A stretch of DNA of 64,000 bases from Candidatus Obscuribacter phosphatis. GTDB lineage: Bacteria > Cyanobacteriota > Vampirovibrionia > Obscuribacterales > Obscuribacteraceae. The stretch covers positions 396,369-460,368 of the forward strand of contig MOYA01000003.1 of assembly GCA_001899315.1 (NCBI GenBank), read 5' to 3'. Below the pieces are notes generated by a model. It was not told where the DNA came from. It saw only the letters and a program-made list of their open reading frames with translations, and did not search any database. Below, piece by piece: positions 36,200-52,479 of the stretch; the first letter of the stretch is position 1, and the number at the start of each line of letters is the position of its first letter. Both the position numbers and the translations under genes were made by a program.

Positions 36200-38284
36200 T
36201 TGTCAAACCAAAATCAAGACCAGTCATTTGCCCCAGGAACCGTTATCGGCGGCTCTTACAGAATCTTGCGTCTGCTTGGCGAAGGCGGCATGGGGGCAAT
36301 TTATGAAGTCGAGCACGTGCATTTCACCAAGCGCTTTGCCCTCAAACTGCTCACCAAGGCAAGCGTGACAGAAACCGACTGGCTTAGATTTAAGCAAGAA
36401 GCCAAAGCCCTTTCTAAGCTGCCCCATGAAAATATCGTCCAGGTGAATGACTTGGGCATCGACAAAGGCGTGCCATTTTATGTAATGGAGCTTGTAAAAG
36501 GTGAAAGCCTGCGCAAAAAACTAAAAGACCGAGGCAAACTTTCTATGAAAGAGAGCCTGACCATTTTTGAAAAACTAGCCTCGACCCTGGCTTATGTGCA
36601 CGAAAACGGCATAATTCACCGCGACATCAAGCCAGACAATATCATGATTATCAGTCAGACAAAGCAGACCGAAGGCGGCACCAAGCAGGAGCTTGGCATT
36701 AAGCTGGTTGATTTCGGCATTTCCAAGCTATCAAACCCTGATACGCCCGGACTGACCCGTGCCGGTGAGGTCTTCGGCAGCCCAATTTATATGAGCCCCG
36801 AACAGTGCATCGGGCAAAAGGTAGACGGACGCAGCGATATCTATGCCATGGGTTGTGCCCTGTTTGAATGTCTCACATCTAAATCACCTTTCCTAGGCAA
36901 AAATGCCGCCGAGACCATTACAAAGAAACTCTCCGACCCACCACCACTTCTAAATGACGTCACACCAGATCAAAATTTTCCGCTAGAGCTGGAAGATTTA
37001 GTTGATTCAATGTTGGCTAGAGAGCCCGAGCGGCGCCCGGAATCAGCGGCTCGGGTGGCAGCAAAGTTGAGAAAGATAAGAAAGGCATTGCTCGATGGGC
37101 CGCCACAGTCGACGGCCAGGCGCCCGGTACGCACCAGTCAACACCAGCAGCCAAACACACAGAACCGTCCTCGCTTTGACGCCGAAGTGACCCAAACCAA
37201 TCTCAATAATGGGCTTGGGCTAAAAGTCGCGATTGCTGCTATCGGCTTGGTGGTGCTCACTTTACTAATTGTTTTCGTTGCCTTGCTGGCGCCGCTTTCG
37301 TCAAAAAACGATAGCGCCAGAAGTCATGTCGAAGAAGAGAATTCAGTCAAACTGCCGGAAAAGGAAAAGCGCAACTTAATCATTTATGGTGGGCATCCTG
37401 AATATGCAACACCGCCCGATTGGAATTTTCTAGAGAAAGCACCATTTTTGAGCAGACGCAAACCAAGCGGTGAGATCATTCTCAATTTTCCAGGCAAGAG
37501 CACTATCGGCAAATTTAGATTCACCATACTTGGTGCTCGCACCTCTGAAAAATTGGAAGCGAGAGGCTCTCAAACCCTGCCCAAGGATACCTGGGTCTTC
37601 TTCCAGCCGCGCGATGACTTGTTTAACCGACCATACCTGCTTAGGAAGCTGGAAGATGGCAGCATCTCAGACCTAGACTGCGAGTCTGAGATGTTCAACT
37701 GCGACTGCCTCGATGAACTTACTCACCTAAAATCGCTCAACTCGCTGCATATCAATCATACTAATATCAACAATCAATGCCTGTCTAAACTAAATTCGCT
37801 CAAGTCGCTAGAAAAGGTCGAACTCGACATCCCGACTCTCGAAGACGATGAAATAGCCAAGCTCAAGATTCTCAACAATCTGCGCTATATCAATATTGCC
37901 GGCAGCAAAAGTCGCTCCAAGACAATCGCCGCTCTGGCCGGCTCTAAAAAACTGAGAACACTCGTGCTTGATGGATGCCCGCTGACAGACCAAGACTTTC
38001 TCAACATAAGCAAAATAGTCAGCCTAGAAAGGCTAGATATTGCGGGCAGCGCCCCTTCAAACCAAAACTTGCTAGCCTTGCAAAAACTGTCAAACCTCAA
38101 GGGAATCGATATCAGAGACTGTACAATTCCAGAAGAAACTTTCAAACTTTTCAAGGCTTTCCCATCCCTGCAAGGCATAAGATCTGACCTGTCAGGCGAA
38201 GCACTAAACAACATGAGACAATATCTCGCCCCAGTACAAATAGATGACGACAAATCAAAATTTAGAAACAGGCTATTCTATTAG
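36200..38284 (+). CDS. membrane Ser/Thr protein kinase with leucine-rich C-terminal domain (1)
   Basis: 694 residues. The N-terminal Hanks-type kinase (about 16-285) has the glycine loop LGEGGMGAIYEV, lysine in FALKLL, HRDIKPDNIM, LVDFGIS and IYMSPEQ. One transmembrane segment near 345-367 (IGLVVLTLLIVFVALLAPL) leads to an outside part with leucine-rich-like repeats (LTHLKSLNSLHINHTNI, LRTLVLDGCPLTDQDFL, LERLDIAGSAPSN). No PASTA domains. The start is TTG at 36200; no ATG is available in frame before the kinase. The paralogue follows 16 bases later. Confidence 0.93.
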   Translation: MSNQNQDQSFAPGTVIGGSYRILRLLGEGGMGAIYEVEHVHFTKRFALKLLTKASVTETDWLRFKQEAKALSKLPHENIVQVNDLGIDKGVPFYVMELVKGESLRKKLKDRGKLSMKESLTIFEKLASTLAYVHENGIIHRDIKPDNIMIISQTKQTEGGTKQELGIKLVDFGISKLSNPDTPGLTRAGEVFGSPIYMSPEQCIGQKVDGRSDIYAMGCALFECLTSKSPFLGKNAAETITKKLSDPPPLLNDVTPDQNFPLELEDLVDSMLAREPERRPESAARVAAKLRKIRKALLDGPPQSTARRPVRTSQHQQPNTQNRPRFDAEVTQTNLNNGLGLKVAIAAIGLVVLTLLIVFVALLAPLSSKNDSARSHVEEENSVKLPEKEKRNLIIYGGHPEYATPPDWNFLEKAPFLSRRKPSGEIILNFPGKSTIGKFRFTILGARTSEKLEARGSQTLPKDTWVFFQPRDDLFNRPYLLRKLEDGSISDLDCESEMFNCDCLDELTHLKSLNSLHINHTNINNQCLSKLNSLKSLEKVELDIPTLEDDEIAKLKILNNLRYINIAGSKSRSKTIAALAGSKKLRTLVLDGCPLTDQDFLNISKIVSLERLDIAGSAPSNQNLLALQKLSNLKGIDIRDCTIPEETFKLFKAFPSLQGIRSDLSGEALNNMRQYLAPVQIDDDKSKFRNRLFY

Positions 38285-38300
38285 AATTTAAAGTCAAGCC

Positions 38301-40388
38301 ATGGATGAATCTAGACCACAAAGCGATCTCGATGCCTCATTAAAGCCCGGCGATATCATCGGCGGTGACTATCAAATCATTGGGCTTGTGGCTGCGGGCG
38401 GCATGGGCAAGGTCTACAAGGTCAAACACCTAAAGCTAGGCCGAGAACTTGCTCTCAAAACCTTAAAGGTGAACCGCGGCACCCAAAGAGACTGGCAAAA
38501 AGACTGGAACAACTTCATCACCGAAGCAAAAGTGCTAGCCAGACTTGAACATCCGCATCTAGTCAAAGTCTATGACCTCGGCACAATCGACAATCGCCTG
38601 CCTTATTTTGTTATGGACTTTGTAGAAGGCGGCACACTCTCGCAAAGAATTCACAAAAGCGCCCTGCCTATAGATTTAGCGCTCAATTTGTTTGAAGAAG
38701 TGGCCGACGGCCTAGCTTATGCCGAAGACCTTGGTCTTTTGCATAGAGACATCAAACCAAGCAATATACTGCTCACCAGTTTAAGCGACCAGAATCAACA
38801 CGCCAAGCTGGTCGACTTTGGCTTATCGTCCACCTTGCATTCGCTGCAAGAGGTGGGCTGGCAAATAGCTGGAGCGGCAGCCAGGGTCTGCGGCAGCCCG
38901 CCCTATATGAGCCCAGAGCAAACGAGAGGCGAAGTCACCGACCAGCGCTCCGACATCTATTCATTTGGCTGTTCTCTGTTTGAAACTTTGACCGGTACGC
39001 CTCCTTTTGTCGGCGACACATCTTTGATCGTACTGAGCAAACATCAATTAGAAGAACCGCCCAGCCTGAAAGAAGCCACTCTAGGCAATGATTTTCCAGA
39101 ACCCTTGGAAAGATTTGTCAGACGCATGCTGGCTAAAGATCCGGCAATGCGTTACCAGTCTTTTCATGAAGTCAAAGCGCTCATTGCAAAACTGCGAAGC
39201 GCCCTGGCCAAAAGCGAGCAAACACCTAAGGCAAGCAAAAAGAACACCACCATAGCAAGCAAGGAAGAACAGGAAAGAACTAAAAAGACTTCTGCCCAGA
39301 AGACGCCTGTCAAGGCGACCATTCTTGCAGCAGCAGCGCTCTTGGTTGTGGCAGGTGGCGGCGCTTGGTTTTACCAAGCCTCAAAAACAACGCCACCACA
39401 GGCGACACCTAAAGAGAGCACACCAGAACTGGGTGAGCGCCTAAAAGACCCTGAGGAAGCGGCAATTAACGCTTTCAAGAAAAAGAGCGAGAACGACCCA
39501 GGCAAATTAGTAGACTGGTACTGGAGCAGTCATCAGGCATTCAGCCCGCTAGATGCAGGCGGCAAATACCAAATATTCAATTGCCCCGAAGGCATAAACA
39601 TGGGCAATTTCGCCATTTTTGATGCCAATGCGATGTCGCTCTCGGGCAAGACGATTGAAGCCGACGGCAGAATTATCCTACCCGAGGGCGAAAAGCTTAT
39701 CTATACACCTTCTCAGCTAGCTCTAGAACACCCTCAGTTTTTTCAAGCCTTTAAAGACAATGAACTATTCGGTATTAATCTAGCCAAAGCCAGCCGCTTG
39801 ACCGAAAATTCGCTCACACTCTTAGACTTTAGACCAGACATCGAGTATCTCGATCTATCGGGTGCAAATTTTGAAGCCAAACACTTAGCCAAGTTAGAAC
39901 AACTAACCAAGCTGCGCTTTCTGCGCATACCCAATACATTTTTGACCGGTGCCGATTTGGCTGGGTCAGTGGGTGCAGCTGTCTTGAAACGTCTCAAAGG
40001 GCTAGCCATCGGCAGAATAGCCAAAATGCCTGAAGCCCTTGCCGTCTTAGCAAAAAATGCCGACCTAACCTATCTTGAGATAATCGACGAACCCTTAGAC
40101 AAAGATTCGATGAAACAAATCGCAGCCGTAAGCAACTTAGAAACAATTCGCTTTGATAAATCACTCAATAACAGCTATCTTGTAAGCGAATTGAAGCCTC
40201 TCAAGAAGCTTAGCCAACTTGATATTGTCACAAGTCTAATTAGACCAAATATCAAAGAAGCTTTGTCTGAGCTTGGCAATTTGAAGATTATGGTGGTGAG
40301 GGAAGGCTTTATTGATAAAGAGCTTTTGGAAGAGCTAAAGGCAGCCTTTCCTGAGGTGCAATTCAAAGTAGAACCGGAAAGAATCTAG
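38301..40388 (+). CDS. membrane Ser/Thr protein kinase with leucine-rich C-terminal domain (2)
   Basis: 695 residues and the same layout as the gene 16 bases upstream, from which it probably arose by duplication. Kinase motifs are GLVAAGGMGKVYKV, LALKTLK, HRDIKPSNILL, LVDFGLSS and PPYMSPEQ. A Lys-rich juxtamembrane stretch precedes the transmembrane segment near 345-362 (ILAAAALLVVAGGGAWFY). The exterior part has leucine-rich-like units (LEYLDLSGANFEAKHL, LRFLRIPNTFLTGADL). The glycine loop begins VAAGG in place of LGEGG, still compatible with activity. The two kinases likely form one operon and sense envelope ligands. Confidence 0.93.
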   Translation: MDESRPQSDLDASLKPGDIIGGDYQIIGLVAAGGMGKVYKVKHLKLGRELALKTLKVNRGTQRDWQKDWNNFITEAKVLARLEHPHLVKVYDLGTIDNRLPYFVMDFVEGGTLSQRIHKSALPIDLALNLFEEVADGLAYAEDLGLLHRDIKPSNILLTSLSDQNQHAKLVDFGLSSTLHSLQEVGWQIAGAAARVCGSPPYMSPEQTRGEVTDQRSDIYSFGCSLFETLTGTPPFVGDTSLIVLSKHQLEEPPSLKEATLGNDFPEPLERFVRRMLAKDPAMRYQSFHEVKALIAKLRSALAKSEQTPKASKKNTTIASKEEQERTKKTSAQKTPVKATILAAAALLVVAGGGAWFYQASKTTPPQATPKESTPELGERLKDPEEAAINAFKKKSENDPGKLVDWYWSSHQAFSPLDAGGKYQIFNCPEGINMGNFAIFDANAMSLSGKTIEADGRIILPEGEKLIYTPSQLALEHPQFFQAFKDNELFGINLAKASRLTENSLTLLDFRPDIEYLDLSGANFEAKHLAKLEQLTKLRFLRIPNTFLTGADLAGSVGAAVLKRLKGLAIGRIAKMPEALAVLAKNADLTYLEIIDEPLDKDSMKQIAAVSNLETIRFDKSLNNSYLVSELKPLKKLSQLDIVTSLIRPNIKEALSELGNLKIMVVREGFIDKELLEELKAAFPEVQFKVEPERI

Positions 40389-41179: not shown

Positions 41180-41235
41180 GCTTTATTTGTTCATTTATTT
41201 GTTCACTTAATTATTCATCTGTTTATTCATTCATA
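41180..41235. repeat. degenerate short tandem repeat at the stop of the MshEN/TPR gene
   Basis: On minus, units like TGAACAAATAAA recur (two exact 12-base copies and two or three diverged ones), starting inside the last codons of the gene and giving several closely spaced stop codons. Confidence 0.65.
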
Positions 41236-43097
41236 GTATTGAGCGAGGCGCCCAGGTCGATAACCCGCCAGGTGCCGGTTATCAGCCCATCAATTGAGCG
41301 CCTGGAAGTGACCACTCGCTCTCTCAAGCCGTCCACTTTAGCATCGAGTGCAAGTGTAATTGGATTGGTCGGTCCCAAGCTCTCTCGACAAACTTTCGCT
41401 GCTTCTTTATAGCAACGCAAAGACTCTTGCAAGTCGCCAAGCTGAAAATAGAGCATGGCGGCATTCTGCCAACCACAGGCGACATCTGGATGGTCAGCGC
41501 CCAAGATTTCAGAAACCACGTCAATATAAGTCATAGTCTCAATCAAGGCATCATCGTTGCGCCCCATAAAATAGAGAGTCTTACCGAGATTATTGAGAGA
41601 CTGTGCATAAGGTATGCTCTTCCGTCCAAAATTCTCAAGATTGAGCTTGGTCAGCTCTTTCTGCAAAGATTCGGCTTTGACAAAGTCTTTCTGCTCAAAA
41701 CAAATATAAGAGAGACGCTCTAAGCAATAGCGATAGCGTCCGTCTTTATAGCTCAAGAGCGCCGTACATAACTGCTCGTACAAGAGCCTGGCATTTTGTA
41801 GGTCGCCCAAAGCCACCAACTGCTCAGCCATCTCTTTCATATTCAACAAAGACGAATCAGTAGCCTTAATCAGCTTTTCTGTGGGCTCAACTGCAATGCA
41901 TGGCGGTTTCTTCAGCCAGCGCAGTTCTTCTAGAGCTTCAGGCACAGAAATATTGCGCCGCCGCGCATACTCAAACAAAGTCGAAGCCGAATCGAAAGAA
42001 TAGCGGCGGTCTTCATAGAGAGCATAACACTGCTCCATAAGCTCAATTGTGGGCTCATCGAGCATGCCCGAAATCAAAAGCGCCTGCTTAACCAGACGCT
42101 GGTTCTTTTTAGCCATTTCAAAGGCCTGGTCAATATTGGTGCCGCTGGTATGATCGAGCGATTTCAAAAACTCAAAAAAGGTAAGCACTCGGCTATCTGA
42201 CTTATCCTCAATCTGCTCTTCATAAGCCGACTGACTAATTGCATCAGACAGCGAAAAACCGTCTTCAAGACGCCGCAGCACAGCCTTGAGCTGGGGCAGT
42301 TTGATAATTCCCTCAGCCAAACTAGACTGCAAAAGCAGCACATTATCTAACTGCGCCTTAGTAATATAGCGTTTCTCAAGCAAAATCTCGCCAATTGATT
42401 TGCGCCCGATTATGCTTAACTCTAGAGACTCAAGCAGCTTTCTTTCGCTAATTAGACCGGACAAAACAAGCAACTCACCAAGCTTGGGAACATTCATCAC
42501 CGGCTGTTCATAAAAATTCTTGGTGCGCAGCTGAGTAGCCTGAGCCAGCTGTCGTTTGCGCGATTCAAGCAAGACATCGACAGCTTCTTCGCGACTAAGC
42601 CTTTTCTGCCGAATCATCATCTGCACATTCAAGGCAGTGCTCAAGAAAGCATCTGAAATCACCCCGGCAGAAACCAACATACGCCCCAGAGGCAGACGCA
42701 CTCGCTCTTGCTGCCGCAGATAGGTCTCAAGCTGCGCTTCCGAGATAACAGTAGAAGAAACAAGCAGTTCACCCAGGGGTGACAATTGCTTCTCGAGCGA
42801 GCGCTCCCAGCCAAACTCTAAAAGAGCGTCCTCCAGCCGCCTGCCGCTGCCGCGCACCGAAAAGAAAGCACGCCTAGCCTGCTCTAGATTGACGAGTTCT
42901 TCTCTAAGCAAACTCTGACACAAAATCAAATTGCTCAAATCATTTTCTGAAATAAGCCCCGACAAAACCAAGACACGCCCCAGGGGCAAACCGGTATCGC
43001 TAGATATAGCCAAAGACTGACTAATCTGCTCGACAGTGCAGGCTTCCATCTGTACCGCCAGATCGCCCAACAAATAAGTGTTACTAATAGCTACCAT
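41223..43097 (-). CDS. three-MshEN protein with C-terminal TPR repeats
   Basis: 624 residues, soluble. The N-terminal 260 residues contain six units of the pattern LGxxLVxxGLIxxxxLxxxL with glycines at G11, G40, G109, G138, G207 and G236. That is three pairs, each offset by exactly 29, the 24+5 spacing of MshEN domains that bind cyclic di-GMP or nucleotides in pilus and secretion ATPases. There is no ATPase domain. The canonical motif arginine is mostly replaced (Pro, Lys, Ser), so ligand binding is doubtful. Residues about 420-600 are TPR-like (YAQSLNNLGKTLYFMGRN, AAMLYFQLGDLQESLRCY). A regulatory scaffold is the best guess. Confidence 0.8.
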   Translation of the reverse strand: MVAISNTYLLGDLAVQMEACTVEQISQSLAISSDTGLPLGRVLVLSGLISENDLSNLILCQSLLREELVNLEQARRAFFSVRGSGRRLEDALLEFGWERSLEKQLSPLGELLVSSTVISEAQLETYLRQQERVRLPLGRMLVSAGVISDAFLSTALNVQMMIRQKRLSREEAVDVLLESRKRQLAQATQLRTKNFYEQPVMNVPKLGELLVLSGLISERKLLESLELSIIGRKSIGEILLEKRYITKAQLDNVLLLQSSLAEGIIKLPQLKAVLRRLEDGFSLSDAISQSAYEEQIEDKSDSRVLTFFEFLKSLDHTSGTNIDQAFEMAKKNQRLVKQALLISGMLDEPTIELMEQCYALYEDRRYSFDSASTLFEYARRRNISVPEALEELRWLKKPPCIAVEPTEKLIKATDSSLLNMKEMAEQLVALGDLQNARLLYEQLCTALLSYKDGRYRYCLERLSYICFEQKDFVKAESLQKELTKLNLENFGRKSIPYAQSLNNLGKTLYFMGRNDDALIETMTYIDVVSEILGADHPDVACGWQNAAMLYFQLGDLQESLRCYKEAAKVCRESLGPTNPITLALDAKVDGLRERVVTSRRSIDGLITGTWRVIDLGASLNTMNE

Positions 43098-43297
43098 CGA
43101 TCAAATAGTAAATTCTGCTTGCCTGAAAGAAACCGAACCTGAAACACCTAAAATCTTACCCTATACAAATGATGCCCCGCTGCGCCAGAGATTCACACAC
43201 CAAACCGTCAATTTCACGAAATTTTCATGGACACAGAGACAATAATACCCAATCAACTTTTCTACACCTGCAAAATTTGCCAGCAAGGCCTTTACTA

Positions 43298-45082
43298 ATG
43301 TCAGAACTAGCAGCCAAAGCAGAAACCGCCCGCAGCGAATCGGTCTATAACGGTGCACAGCCGGCCCAGTTCGATGGGCTAGGACGCAAACCAGAGCCCA
43401 GCGCCGACCAAAAGCTCGGGCAGCTATCTGACCAAAAGCAAGAAGCAGACGGCAGTAAGGGTCCCGACCTGTTGCTCTTTGCCGTCAAGCAAAACAGTCA
43501 GTCTGAAGCAGCGAAACAAGCCGAAAGGCTCTTGCCGCCGGTAATGATCGACTATGGCAATTCTCTAGTCACTTCCAATCTGAAACCCAAAAGCGAAAAG
43601 ACCGAACAGCCCCCTCAAAGCCAAGAAAACCGGCGCCCGGCAATAAAATGGGAAGACTCACCAAAGCCCAGCCAAGAATCTTTCAAAGCTGCCGAAAAGC
43701 CACAAGAAAAGGCGCCGCCAAAGCTGCCAGAGAGGCTGCTCGAAAGGCAACCGGAGAAACAGCCCGAGAGACAACCGGAGAAACAGCCTGAAAAATCAAC
43801 TGACAAATCAACGGAAAAATCAACAGAAAAACCGGTAGAGGCGCAGAAAGAAAGATTGCCAGTGGACGGCAGAGAAGCGCGAGCCTACCTGCACGGTGAC
43901 GGTAAATCTCTGCCGCCTATCGCCCGCGACTTTGCCAACGTGGGGCGCCATATGCTGCAAAAGCAAGAAGAAGCCGAAAAACTGCGCCCTCAAATTTATG
44001 TAGCCCAAAAGGGAGGAGACAGTCGCTTTCCCCAGGGCACAAAAGAGAACCCCTATACCAGCATACAGGACGCGGTTGACCGTTCTGCCGGAGGCACAGT
44101 TATAAACGTCGCCCCAGGCGTCTACAAAGAACGCATCAAGGTAGACCGCTCCGACATTTCAATCAAAACCAGCGAAAGCAATCCTGCCATCATAGAGCCC
44201 GGCGTCGGCGCCAAAGGCCGAGGCGATGCCGGTTTTTCAATCGGCTCTTATACCAGCAATGTAGCCATCAAAAATTTTGAGATAAGAAACTTTGACGGCA
44301 CTAAAGGCGGTATCAGAATCGACGGACGCAATATCTCAGACATAACGATCGCCGGCAATAATGTGCACTCAGCAAACGGCGCCGAAGGCATAAGCGTCTA
44401 CGGCAGAGGCAAAGAAGAAAGCGAGAGGGTAAAAAACATAGACATAGTCTCGAACAAAGTGCACAATCTAAAGCTGGGACAGCTGGAAGCCATGCCCATA
44501 AATGGCAATGTCAGCGAGTTTAAGGTAATCGGAAACGCCGGCTATAACCTCGACAATCTCTATATAGACGCCATAGGCGGAGAGAAAACCTCTGCAAACA
44601 AAGATCTAGACCAACCACGAAAGGGTTTAATTGCCTACAACTTTGCCGACGGCATATCATCAACAAATAATGGCTCTTACAAAAGAGAACCTTCGGCAGC
44701 CGGTATCTATGTAGACGGCGCCAAACAGCTTGAGATAAGACACAACTATGTGCGCGGCTCAGACTTTGGCATCGAAATCGCCAGCGAGCACAAAGGTCTC
44801 GCCGCTCGCCAAATAAATGTATCGGGCAACATATTTGAAAACTCAAAACTTGCATGGCTGACCCGAGGCGGCGAAGCCAACCGCCCAGGTGGCGCCCGCG
44901 AGACCTCGGTCTGGAACAACACCGTGATTGGCAACAAAAGAGTACAGACCCAAGAAAATGTCGACCTGCAGACTTTTAGAATATTCGGCAATCAAGCCTA
45001 TGCCACGGCAGAAACAATTAGAGAACTGCCAACCGCCTTGGCTGTTTTGATGAAAAAGAATCGCGAGAATGCCGGCCGCTGA
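43298..45082 (+). CDS. right-handed beta-helix protein with charged repeat linker
   Basis: 594 residues. The first 240 are polar and disordered-looking, with PEKQPERQPEKQPEKS and STDKSTEKSTEKP repeats. From about 250 a parallel beta-helix begins, with IYVAQKGGDSRFPQGTKENP and YTSIQDAVDRSAGGTVINVA (DUF1565-like start of pectate-lyase-type helices), followed by many N-turn repeats such as ISDITIAGNNVHSANG and LEIRHNYVRGSDFGIEI. It may bind or cut polysaccharide, but catalytic residues cannot be assigned. I chose the ATG at 43298 (AAGG upstream). No signal peptide is visible, so export would need another route. Confidence 0.8.
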   Translation: MSELAAKAETARSESVYNGAQPAQFDGLGRKPEPSADQKLGQLSDQKQEADGSKGPDLLLFAVKQNSQSEAAKQAERLLPPVMIDYGNSLVTSNLKPKSEKTEQPPQSQENRRPAIKWEDSPKPSQESFKAAEKPQEKAPPKLPERLLERQPEKQPERQPEKQPEKSTDKSTEKSTEKPVEAQKERLPVDGREARAYLHGDGKSLPPIARDFANVGRHMLQKQEEAEKLRPQIYVAQKGGDSRFPQGTKENPYTSIQDAVDRSAGGTVINVAPGVYKERIKVDRSDISIKTSESNPAIIEPGVGAKGRGDAGFSIGSYTSNVAIKNFEIRNFDGTKGGIRIDGRNISDITIAGNNVHSANGAEGISVYGRGKEESERVKNIDIVSNKVHNLKLGQLEAMPINGNVSEFKVIGNAGYNLDNLYIDAIGGEKTSANKDLDQPRKGLIAYNFADGISSTNNGSYKREPSAAGIYVDGAKQLEIRHNYVRGSDFGIEIASEHKGLAARQINVSGNIFENSKLAWLTRGGEANRPGGARETSVWNNTVIGNKRVQTQENVDLQTFRIFGNQAYATAETIRELPTALAVLMKKNRENAGR

Positions 45083-51045: not shown

Positions 51046-52341
51046 CTATGGTTTTTCAGAATGACAAGCGGGCATAATGAAAGGTCTGCCCAAACGGATA
51101 TCTTGATCTCCTTCGTACGAATCCGGAACTGGAGTAAACCTTGGAAATTCAGCTCGGGGACTAAGTTCTGGCTTTACGCTGCCGGTTGATACATCTTGCA
51201 TGACGTCACGCGTTGAAAGACAATCCACAAATGCGATTCCTTCAGAGAATTGCGCCGCTGTAGAGAACTGCGGGGCGATCACATACTGGCCATCTTCATT
51301 GATGTAGCCCCATCTCTTAGAATCCACTTGGACCGCGGCCAAGCCATCGCTAAAGTTATGTGCATTCTTGAAGACCGGTTTCACAGCAGTCCTTCCGCTC
51401 CGATCGATAAATCCATAGCTTCCGCTTTCCACAATTAGAGCTCGCTCTCCTTCAAATGGAAAGGCAAAGTCATATTTCGGCGGAATTACAAAATCCCCAG
51501 TCTTATCGATGAATCCAAATTTATTGTCTACAGCGATTGGTGCCAATCCTCCCCGAAATATTGAAGGACTCATTAGCGAATGAGGATACTTGGAGTTTCT
51601 TTCGAAACTGCTCAGGGAAACGTTCTCCGATAGATCTAGTCTGCCGAAGCTAAGGTCTTTACGAACGAAGATTGACTTGTCGTGCTGAGGATCTAGGTCT
51701 AATATAACTTTTCCCGTTTTGTCAATGAAACAAAGTCTTTGTCCACGTTGCCATGCAAGTGAAAGACCTTCAGAGTATCCTGATACGAAGTCGTATTTAG
51801 GCTTAACCGCCCATGCGCCAGTCTGATCAATAAACCCAATCTTTCTATCGACCTCTACCGCCGCTAAGCCCTCGGAAAAGCCTGCGGCGCTGTCAAAAAG
51901 ATAGTCGATTTCCAGTTTCCCGGTCCGTCCTATGTAACCGTACTTTCCACTCGAACTAACTGCGGCTAGACCTTCTCGGAAGTTGTGCGCATCTCGAAAT
52001 TTAGCTGGAATAACAAATCTTCCAAGATTGCTTATAAAGCCAAACTGGCTATTTCTTGCTACAGGGGCTAGACTCTCAGAAAATGGCAGAGCATGGCAAA
52101 ATGAATGTCTCATCAATCGACCGTTGATACTAAGGAATCCGGATCTGTCGCCGCCACCAGCTCCAACTAAGGCATAGCCGTACTCAAATCTACTTGCCGG
52201 AGTCATCTTTGAGCCCTTGGGCAACGGAAAAATCAGATCGCCTGATTGCGAGACACATTGCTGGCTAGACGGCTGAGCATGAAGAGACTGTGGGATGACC
52301 GCAGCGCAGACAAGAAACGAAAATATGGTCTTTATCTTCAT
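51046..52341 (-). CDS. secreted WG-repeat protein
   Basis: 431 residues with a signal peptide (TIFSFLVCAAVIPQSLHA). The mature part is a string of WG-type beta repeats, each with a GFI(D/S)xxGxFVI core and an FSEGLAAV turn: QFGFISNLGRFVIPAKF, KYGYIGRTGKLEIDYLF, KIGFIDQTGAWAVKPKYDF, KFGFIDKTGDFVIPPKYDF and more, at least seven in all. WG-repeat proteins are usually exported and thought to bind ligands or partners. I prefer the ATG at 52341 because it places the signal peptide first; a longer frame begins at 52389. Confidence 0.9.
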   Translation of the reverse strand: MKIKTIFSFLVCAAVIPQSLHAQPSSQQCVSQSGDLIFPLPKGSKMTPASRFEYGYALVGAGGGDRSGFLSINGRLMRHSFCHALPFSESLAPVARNSQFGFISNLGRFVIPAKFRDAHNFREGLAAVSSSGKYGYIGRTGKLEIDYLFDSAAGFSEGLAAVEVDRKIGFIDQTGAWAVKPKYDFVSGYSEGLSLAWQRGQRLCFIDKTGKVILDLDPQHDKSIFVRKDLSFGRLDLSENVSLSSFERNSKYPHSLMSPSIFRGGLAPIAVDNKFGFIDKTGDFVIPPKYDFAFPFEGERALIVESGSYGFIDRSGRTAVKPVFKNAHNFSDGLAAVQVDSKRWGYINEDGQYVIAPQFSTAAQFSEGIAFVDCLSTRDVMQDVSTGSVKPELSPRAEFPRFTPVPDSYEGDQDIRLGRPFIMPACHSEKP

Positions 52342-52479
52342 ACTCTCATGCAACACTACAAAGTCAGCTATTGTCAAATCACTGATCACTGAGAGAGGCG
52401 CGTCTTGGTAGATCGTTCATCCCATTCAAGTGCCAAATTGCTCCTCTTCATGTCGCAACCGCTCAACGGAAACTCTGTC

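Follow-up and report, generated by a model that had tools for sequence, protein, structure and literature searches.

The window analysed here is a stretch of 64,000 nucleotides from Candidatus Obscuribacter phosphatis (contig MOYA01000003.1, positions 396,369 to 460,368 of the forward strand). On its minus strand, positions 41223-43097 hold a single open reading frame with an ATG start that encodes a protein of 624 amino acids; a plus-strand frame over the same positions was ruled out by its many stops. The encoded protein consists of four MshEN units and a TPR tail and lacks an ATPase domain. The neighbouring genes encode two Ser/Thr kinases with leucine-rich repeats, a glyoxalase-fold protein and one protein without a Pfam match. 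The two kinase genes adjoin one another at 36200-40388 (+), and each product carries its leucine-rich-repeat region at the C-terminus; in the corresponding locus of a relative whose array gene is 84% identical, the kinases are about 40% identical. The protein without a Pfam match (43169-45082, +) has 637 amino acids, and its gene runs divergently from the array gene at a distance of 71 bp; by its sequence it looks like a right-handed beta-helix preceded by a disordered Pro/Glu/Lys-rich N-terminus. A WG beta-repeat protein is encoded at 51046-52389 (-), with six matching stretches and 210.7 bits. The array gene has the same neighbours only within the genus, and it is better conserved than they are. 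Since their conservation ends at the genus, the derivation of a partner from synteny was dropped.

A reading of this locus made from the sequence alone (the sequence-only reading) had proposed MshEN domains joined to TPR repeats without an ATPase, and profile searches bear this out. The NCBIfam model NF053729 (MshE-related c-di-GMP domain) matches the protein in three stretches with 109.6 bits, against a curated cut-off of 38 bits. The Pfam search gave no match to the T2SSE ATPase domain, and TPR_12 matches three stretches of the tail with 69.5 bits (cut-off 30.1). At gathering level Pfam reports TPR families only, and by itself it would call the protein a TPR protein. Pfam matches to DUF4388 and FumaraseC_C cover short helix-turn segments within the repeats and were discounted as similarity at the level of the fold, and a search of a viral structure library gave no convincing match. 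The TPR tail spans residues ~415-596 (41310..41855, -) and is of the kinesin-light-chain type, as indicated by TPR_12, by kinesin light chain chains in the PDB and by the hairpins of the model. It shares the LG-DHPDVA signature with the kinesin light chain TPRs, but the relationship is limited to the tail and the kinesin context is absent.

The MshEN part is built as a strict superrepeat of 98 residues, with units starting at about residues 9, 107, 205 and 304. The unit 1 core covers residues 9-61 (42915..43073, -; supported by NF053729), unit 2 residues 107-159 (42621..42779, -; 50.6 bits with NF053729), unit 3 residues 205-257 (42327..42485, -) and the degenerate unit 4 residues ~304-356 (42030..42188, -). 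Each core comprises two 24-residue motifs and a 5-residue spacer, an arrangement that is exact in units 1-3, where motifs start at residues 9/38, 107/136 and 205/234, and degenerate in unit 4. Successive cores are separated by spacers of 45 residues, and the spacer itself gives a weak MshEN-like score at an offset of 49. With an independent profile, built without the source genome, units 1 to 4 score 45.5, 55.0, 40.6 and 21.6 bits, whereas the best of 1000 shuffled controls reaches 16.7 bits; unit 4 has an E-value of 1e-5 among the 1001 sequences. LG-type pairs 29 residues apart occur three times, whereas 5000 shuffles average 0.006 and never exceed 1. As both the unit scores and the LG-pair count exceed the shuffles, the pairing is real and a chance pairing of motifs was ruled out. 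The glycine positions given in the sequence-only reading (11/40, 109/138 and 207/236) and their spacing of 29 are exact, but its count of three MshEN pairs has to be raised to four units. The pairing recurs in homologues as well: a custom profile run over 1166 ORFs from the collected loci found the same unit register, including that of unit 4, in many proteins of the family.

Structure prediction gave a similar picture at the level of the single unit. An AF2 model of unit 1, computed with an alignment of the protein's own units, is confident (pLDDT 88, pTM 0.78) and places helices at residues 10-16, 22-35, 39-45 and 51-65, which correspond to the MshEN_N bundle, followed by linker helices at 71-81 and 88-94. 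It superimposes on c-di-GMP-bound PilF-GSPIIB with 0.9 Å over 51 residues, 33% of which are identical. Among solved structures, Foldseek ranks the c-di-GMP complexes of MshE and of PilF-GSPIIB (8pdk/8pfa) as the best matches at probabilities of 0.99-1.00, and MshEN structures make up eight of the first ten (0.96-1.00); the E-values are weak, about 1, because the domain is short. On the basis of this model, unit 1 is assigned the four-helix MshEN_N fold. For the second half of the unit, the search of PDB structures returned no MshEN_C match. The full-length AF2 model is poor overall (pTM 0.34), although each unit comes out with about six helices and the TPR tail is modelled with confidence as helical hairpins, mostly at pLDDT 77-92. 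The full-length fold was considered too uncertain to serve as evidence on packing between units.

Whether the units could bind c-di-GMP was judged against published MshEN proteins. In the MshEN domain of Vibrio cholerae MshE (VcMshEN), an Arg stacks on the guanine, leucine triads grip this base, glycine backbone amides read it and the Gln that ends each motif bonds the ribose-phosphate (PMC5013675). The extended consensus at position 1 of the motifs in c-di-GMP-binding MshEN domains is R/K/L (PMC11731258). Thermus PilF provides a graded set of cases: GSPII-B has Lys and Leu at the Arg positions and binds with a KD of 6 nM, and GSPII-C has Pro at motif II and still binds near 500 nM. Single Gln-to-Glu changes in GSPII-B lower affinity 77-158-fold and leave 460-950 nM, while the double change abolishes binding (PMC11731258). 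GSPII-A, with H/S/A/R at the key positions, does not bind c-di-GMP (PMC12002112).

Seen against these cases, the pockets of the four units differ. Unit 1 reads L-L-G-D..S / P-L-G-R..Q, unit 2 P-L-G-E..Q / P-L-G-R..Q and unit 3 K-L-G-E..S / S-I-G-E..Q, so that the first positions are L, P and K in motif I and P, P and S in motif II. Unit 2 retains the leucine triads, both glutamines and both pocket glycines. Units 1 and 3 have Ser for the motif-I Gln and still carry the motif-II Gln, and unit 3 also has Arg for G47. Unit 4 has neither Gln and has lost the pocket glycine and motif-II Gln positions. Judged by the PilF binding data, unit 2 would be the most binding-competent unit and the likeliest c-di-GMP site, units 1 and 3 would be doubtful binders and unit 4 a probable non-binder. 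Several features count against binding: firstly, Ser stands at the motif-I Gln of units 1 and 3; secondly, unit 3 has Arg for G47 and shares its Ser at position 1 of motif II with the non-binding GSPII-A, whose end residues are altered as well; and lastly, unit 2 has Pro first in both motifs, a combination that is absent from the binding studies consulted. The sequence-only reading had taken the loss of the usual arginine as a sign of changed or lost binding. This argument is weak in view of the affinities of GSPII-B (K, L) and GSPII-C (Pro), and the rule that a lost Arg means lost binding was ruled out by these data. Most paralogues also retain R/K in motif I. The family-wide exchange of the motif-I Gln for Ala, Ser or Gly, which that reading passed over, is more likely to be of consequence than the missing Arg.

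This exchange is part of a wider pattern. Among 67 non-redundant arrays, motif I of units 1-3 is R/K-L-G in most proteins, with the Gln replaced by A, S or G. In motif II, Pro stands for Arg in 59/68, 65/67 and 45/66 of units 1, 2 and 3, and the Gln is kept in 66/68, 65/67 and 64/66, respectively. Pocket glycines of units 1-3 are kept in about 97-99% of 67 non-redundant proteins, and the hydrophobic triads hardly vary in these units across about 67 divergent proteins. A unit 2 with both glutamines is confined to the clade of the window protein. Such an asymmetric pocket (R/K and no Gln in motif I, Pro and Gln in motif II), uniform in units 1-3 of many genera, could suit a different guanine nucleotide, namely cGAMP or a mononucleotide, and VcMshEN does bind cGAMP, although more weakly than c-di-GMP (PMC5013675). 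We consider such a change of ligand very unlikely, since the guanine-reading backbone Gly contacts are kept in both halves, GGDEF enzymes are abundant and unit 2 of the window protein itself departs from the asymmetry.

Unit 4 follows a different course. It is degenerate in the family, with the motif-I Gly in 14/55 and the motif-II Gln in 12/55 proteins. Nevertheless, in comparison with an 84%-identical orthologue the unit 4 core is identical over its 53 residues, whereas the other MshEN cores are 89-91% and the TPR tail 77% identical (dS in this comparison is mostly saturated). In 395 family pairs, conservation lies above the core average in the MshEN cores and below it in spacers 1 and 3 and in the TPR tail. 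Because its pocket has decayed while its core is strongly conserved, unit 4 looks like a contact surface that may owe its preservation to something other than ligand binding. The same observation speaks for a ligand-free structural scaffold, in which the MshEN fold would serve throughout as an alpha-solenoid brick that has lost c-di-GMP binding and makes protein contacts together with the TPRs. The suboptimal pockets of units 1 and 3 would fit this, and PilF GSPII-A shows that a naturally non-binding MshEN domain can persist (PMC12002112). A brick, however, would not need the near-invariant motif-II Gln, glycines and triads of units 1-3, nor the second Gln kept in unit 2 of the clade, and we regard a wholly ligand-free array as unlikely.

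The window protein is not the stand-alone oddity that the sequence-only reading took it for, since it is one of 16 proteins with at least three MshEN units in the source genome and belongs to a family that extends over the order. The source genome (5.49 Mb; Candidatus Obscuribacterales) contains 68 MshEN matches in 31 reading frames, of which only two also carry a T2SSE ATPase. The 27 genomes examined from the order contain 1017 MshEN matches (median 39 per genome), whereas the median is 1 for 13 genomes of the class that belong to other orders; in the class members searched outside the order there is at most one match of ~60 residues, in frames of about 650-700 amino acids. In a 117-genome sample of the phylum, no arrays were found outside the source genome. 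No plasmid-borne copies were found. Full-length homologues occur in at least six genera (g1, g69, g77, g78, g79 and g85), and arrays as well as array-TPR proteins are present in the sister family within the order; the same architecture is thus found in relatives. A search with the window protein by itself identified named relatives among MAGs, a Candidatus Obscuribacterales protein that is 98% identical and a Candidatus Melainabacteria protein that is 84% identical (L046, L047).

A quick maximum likelihood tree unites the window protein's TPR-tailed relatives in one group of 14 rows (SH-aLRT 96), and a second, separate TPR group comprises five rows; several rows are on long branches. By this topology, the TPR tail is fused in one 14-member clade and was gained independently in another. 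Array genes adjoin one another at three loci (G121:C248, L078; G130:C6, L109; G165:C15, L113), and for this reason the family may have grown partly by local duplication. Two further forms of MshEN protein were encountered. Compact ORFs of ~127-129 amino acids in several genera hold two MshEN domains 54 residues apart without a spacer (G126:C50:6232-6546; G134:C234:19743-20057; G139:C2:337997-338299; G135:C152:670-972). In the source genome, degenerate MshEN-type pairs come after a Ser/Thr kinase in a reading frame on contig C4 of G000 (L039:901-2901, +), which suggests that kinase-MshEN fusions exist there.

The source genome has 20 strong GGDEF matches and two EAL matches, and it has no match to PilZ; the 27 order members have 16 PilZ matches in total. 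The GG[DE]EF motif is present in nine of the 20 strong GGDEF matches and absent from the other 11, and many of the latter may be receptors or pseudo-enzymes. Over 40 relatives the MshEN and GGDEF counts are correlated (Spearman 0.89; within the order 0.66), but MshEN counts also follow genome size (rho 0.83; within the order 0.68), and the correlation is thus confounded and supportive only. At two other loci (L016 and L020) a separate TPR gene directly adjoins the array gene on the same strand, and at a third (L024) a gene for a PATAN (DUF4388)/partial-GGDEF protein (621-2756, +) ends about 35 bp upstream of the array. These layouts support a working link of arrays, TPRs and c-di-GMP signalling.

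MshEN is otherwise the docking and regulatory N-domain of type IV pilus and type II secretion motors, and the source genome encodes an MshEN-bearing PilB (L035) besides other T2SSE ATPases. An array could act as a decoy or regulator that docks to such a motor in place of the N-domain of PilB or GspE. The sequence-only reading had suggested a look for co-occurring tad or pilus genes; neither kind lies next to the window gene, and the paralogues examined have no pilus genes beside them either. Sixteen arrays also far exceed the motors in number, and the second half of the units lacks resemblance to MshEN_C in the PDB search. A motor decoy is therefore improbable.

Comparison with known systems shows what the arrays share and where they depart. 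With V. cholerae MshE (5htl; PMC5013675) they have in common the 53-residue core with its 24+5+24 motifs, the four-helix bundle, the LG motif, the leucine triads and the motif-II Gln. Unlike MshE, the window protein has four copies in a 98-residue superrepeat without an ATPase, and the arrays have a two-helix linker in place of MshEN_C, a motif-I Gln that is mostly replaced and Pro for the motif-II Arg. GSPII-A/B/C of Thermus thermophilus PilF (8pdk, 9g1w; PMC11731258, PMC12002112) resemble the array in being consecutive MshEN-type domains and in a first position without Arg; of these PilF domains, some bind and some do not, as may also hold for the units of the array. PilF, however, is a traffic ATPase whose three domains, of ~140-170 amino acids each, follow one another at irregular intervals, whereas the window protein combines a strict 98-residue periodicity with a TPR tail and has no ATPase. 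Nearly every array member, if not every one, aligns with the MshEN regions of E. coli NfrB (PRK11234) and the related PRK15489, and this match extends beyond the MshEN core (103-184 of P0001). Unlike the arrays, NfrB is a membrane glycosyltransferase with a single MshEN; its partner NfrA carries TPRs (PMC8669469).

The idea of a c-di-GMP-responsive scaffold, already raised in the sequence-only reading, remains plausible, and we favour (probability about 0.58) a soluble cytoplasmic adaptor that would bind c-di-GMP and switch in response. The N-terminal 400 residues form four head-to-tail units of 98 residues, each a four-helix MshEN_N bundle with a two-helix linker. The ligand would most likely be bound in unit 2, whereas units 1 and 3 would bind it less tightly, if at all; unit 4, with its pocket lost, would probably provide a packing or protein-contact surface. 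Binding would shift the way in which units pack in the array, and this change would reach a partner protein through the TPR tail.

MshEN itself is a known domain, and what is apparently new is its arrangement as a conserved four-unit array with a TPR tail in a paralogous family that extends over an order. In the papers on MshEN that were consulted, no description of such arrays was found; an earlier notice is possible, but this large family in a group of non-photosynthetic cyanobacteria is apparently undescribed. In c-di-GMP signalling the enzymes have long outnumbered the known receptors. Where cyclases are numerous in an order, PilZ proteins are scarce or absent and MshEN arrays have expanded greatly, the receptor side becomes readable from the genome, and the array proteins look like the main c-di-GMP readers of this group. 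We tentatively propose that the Obscuribacterales use four-unit arrays of ~98-residue MshEN units, many per genome, as multi-site c-di-GMP decoders that have taken over from PilZ as the principal class of receptor, in which units with dead pockets and TPR or other tails would give each paralogue its own partners. Intact and decayed pockets within one protein form a natural series that could sharpen the rules of ligand binding by MshEN domains.
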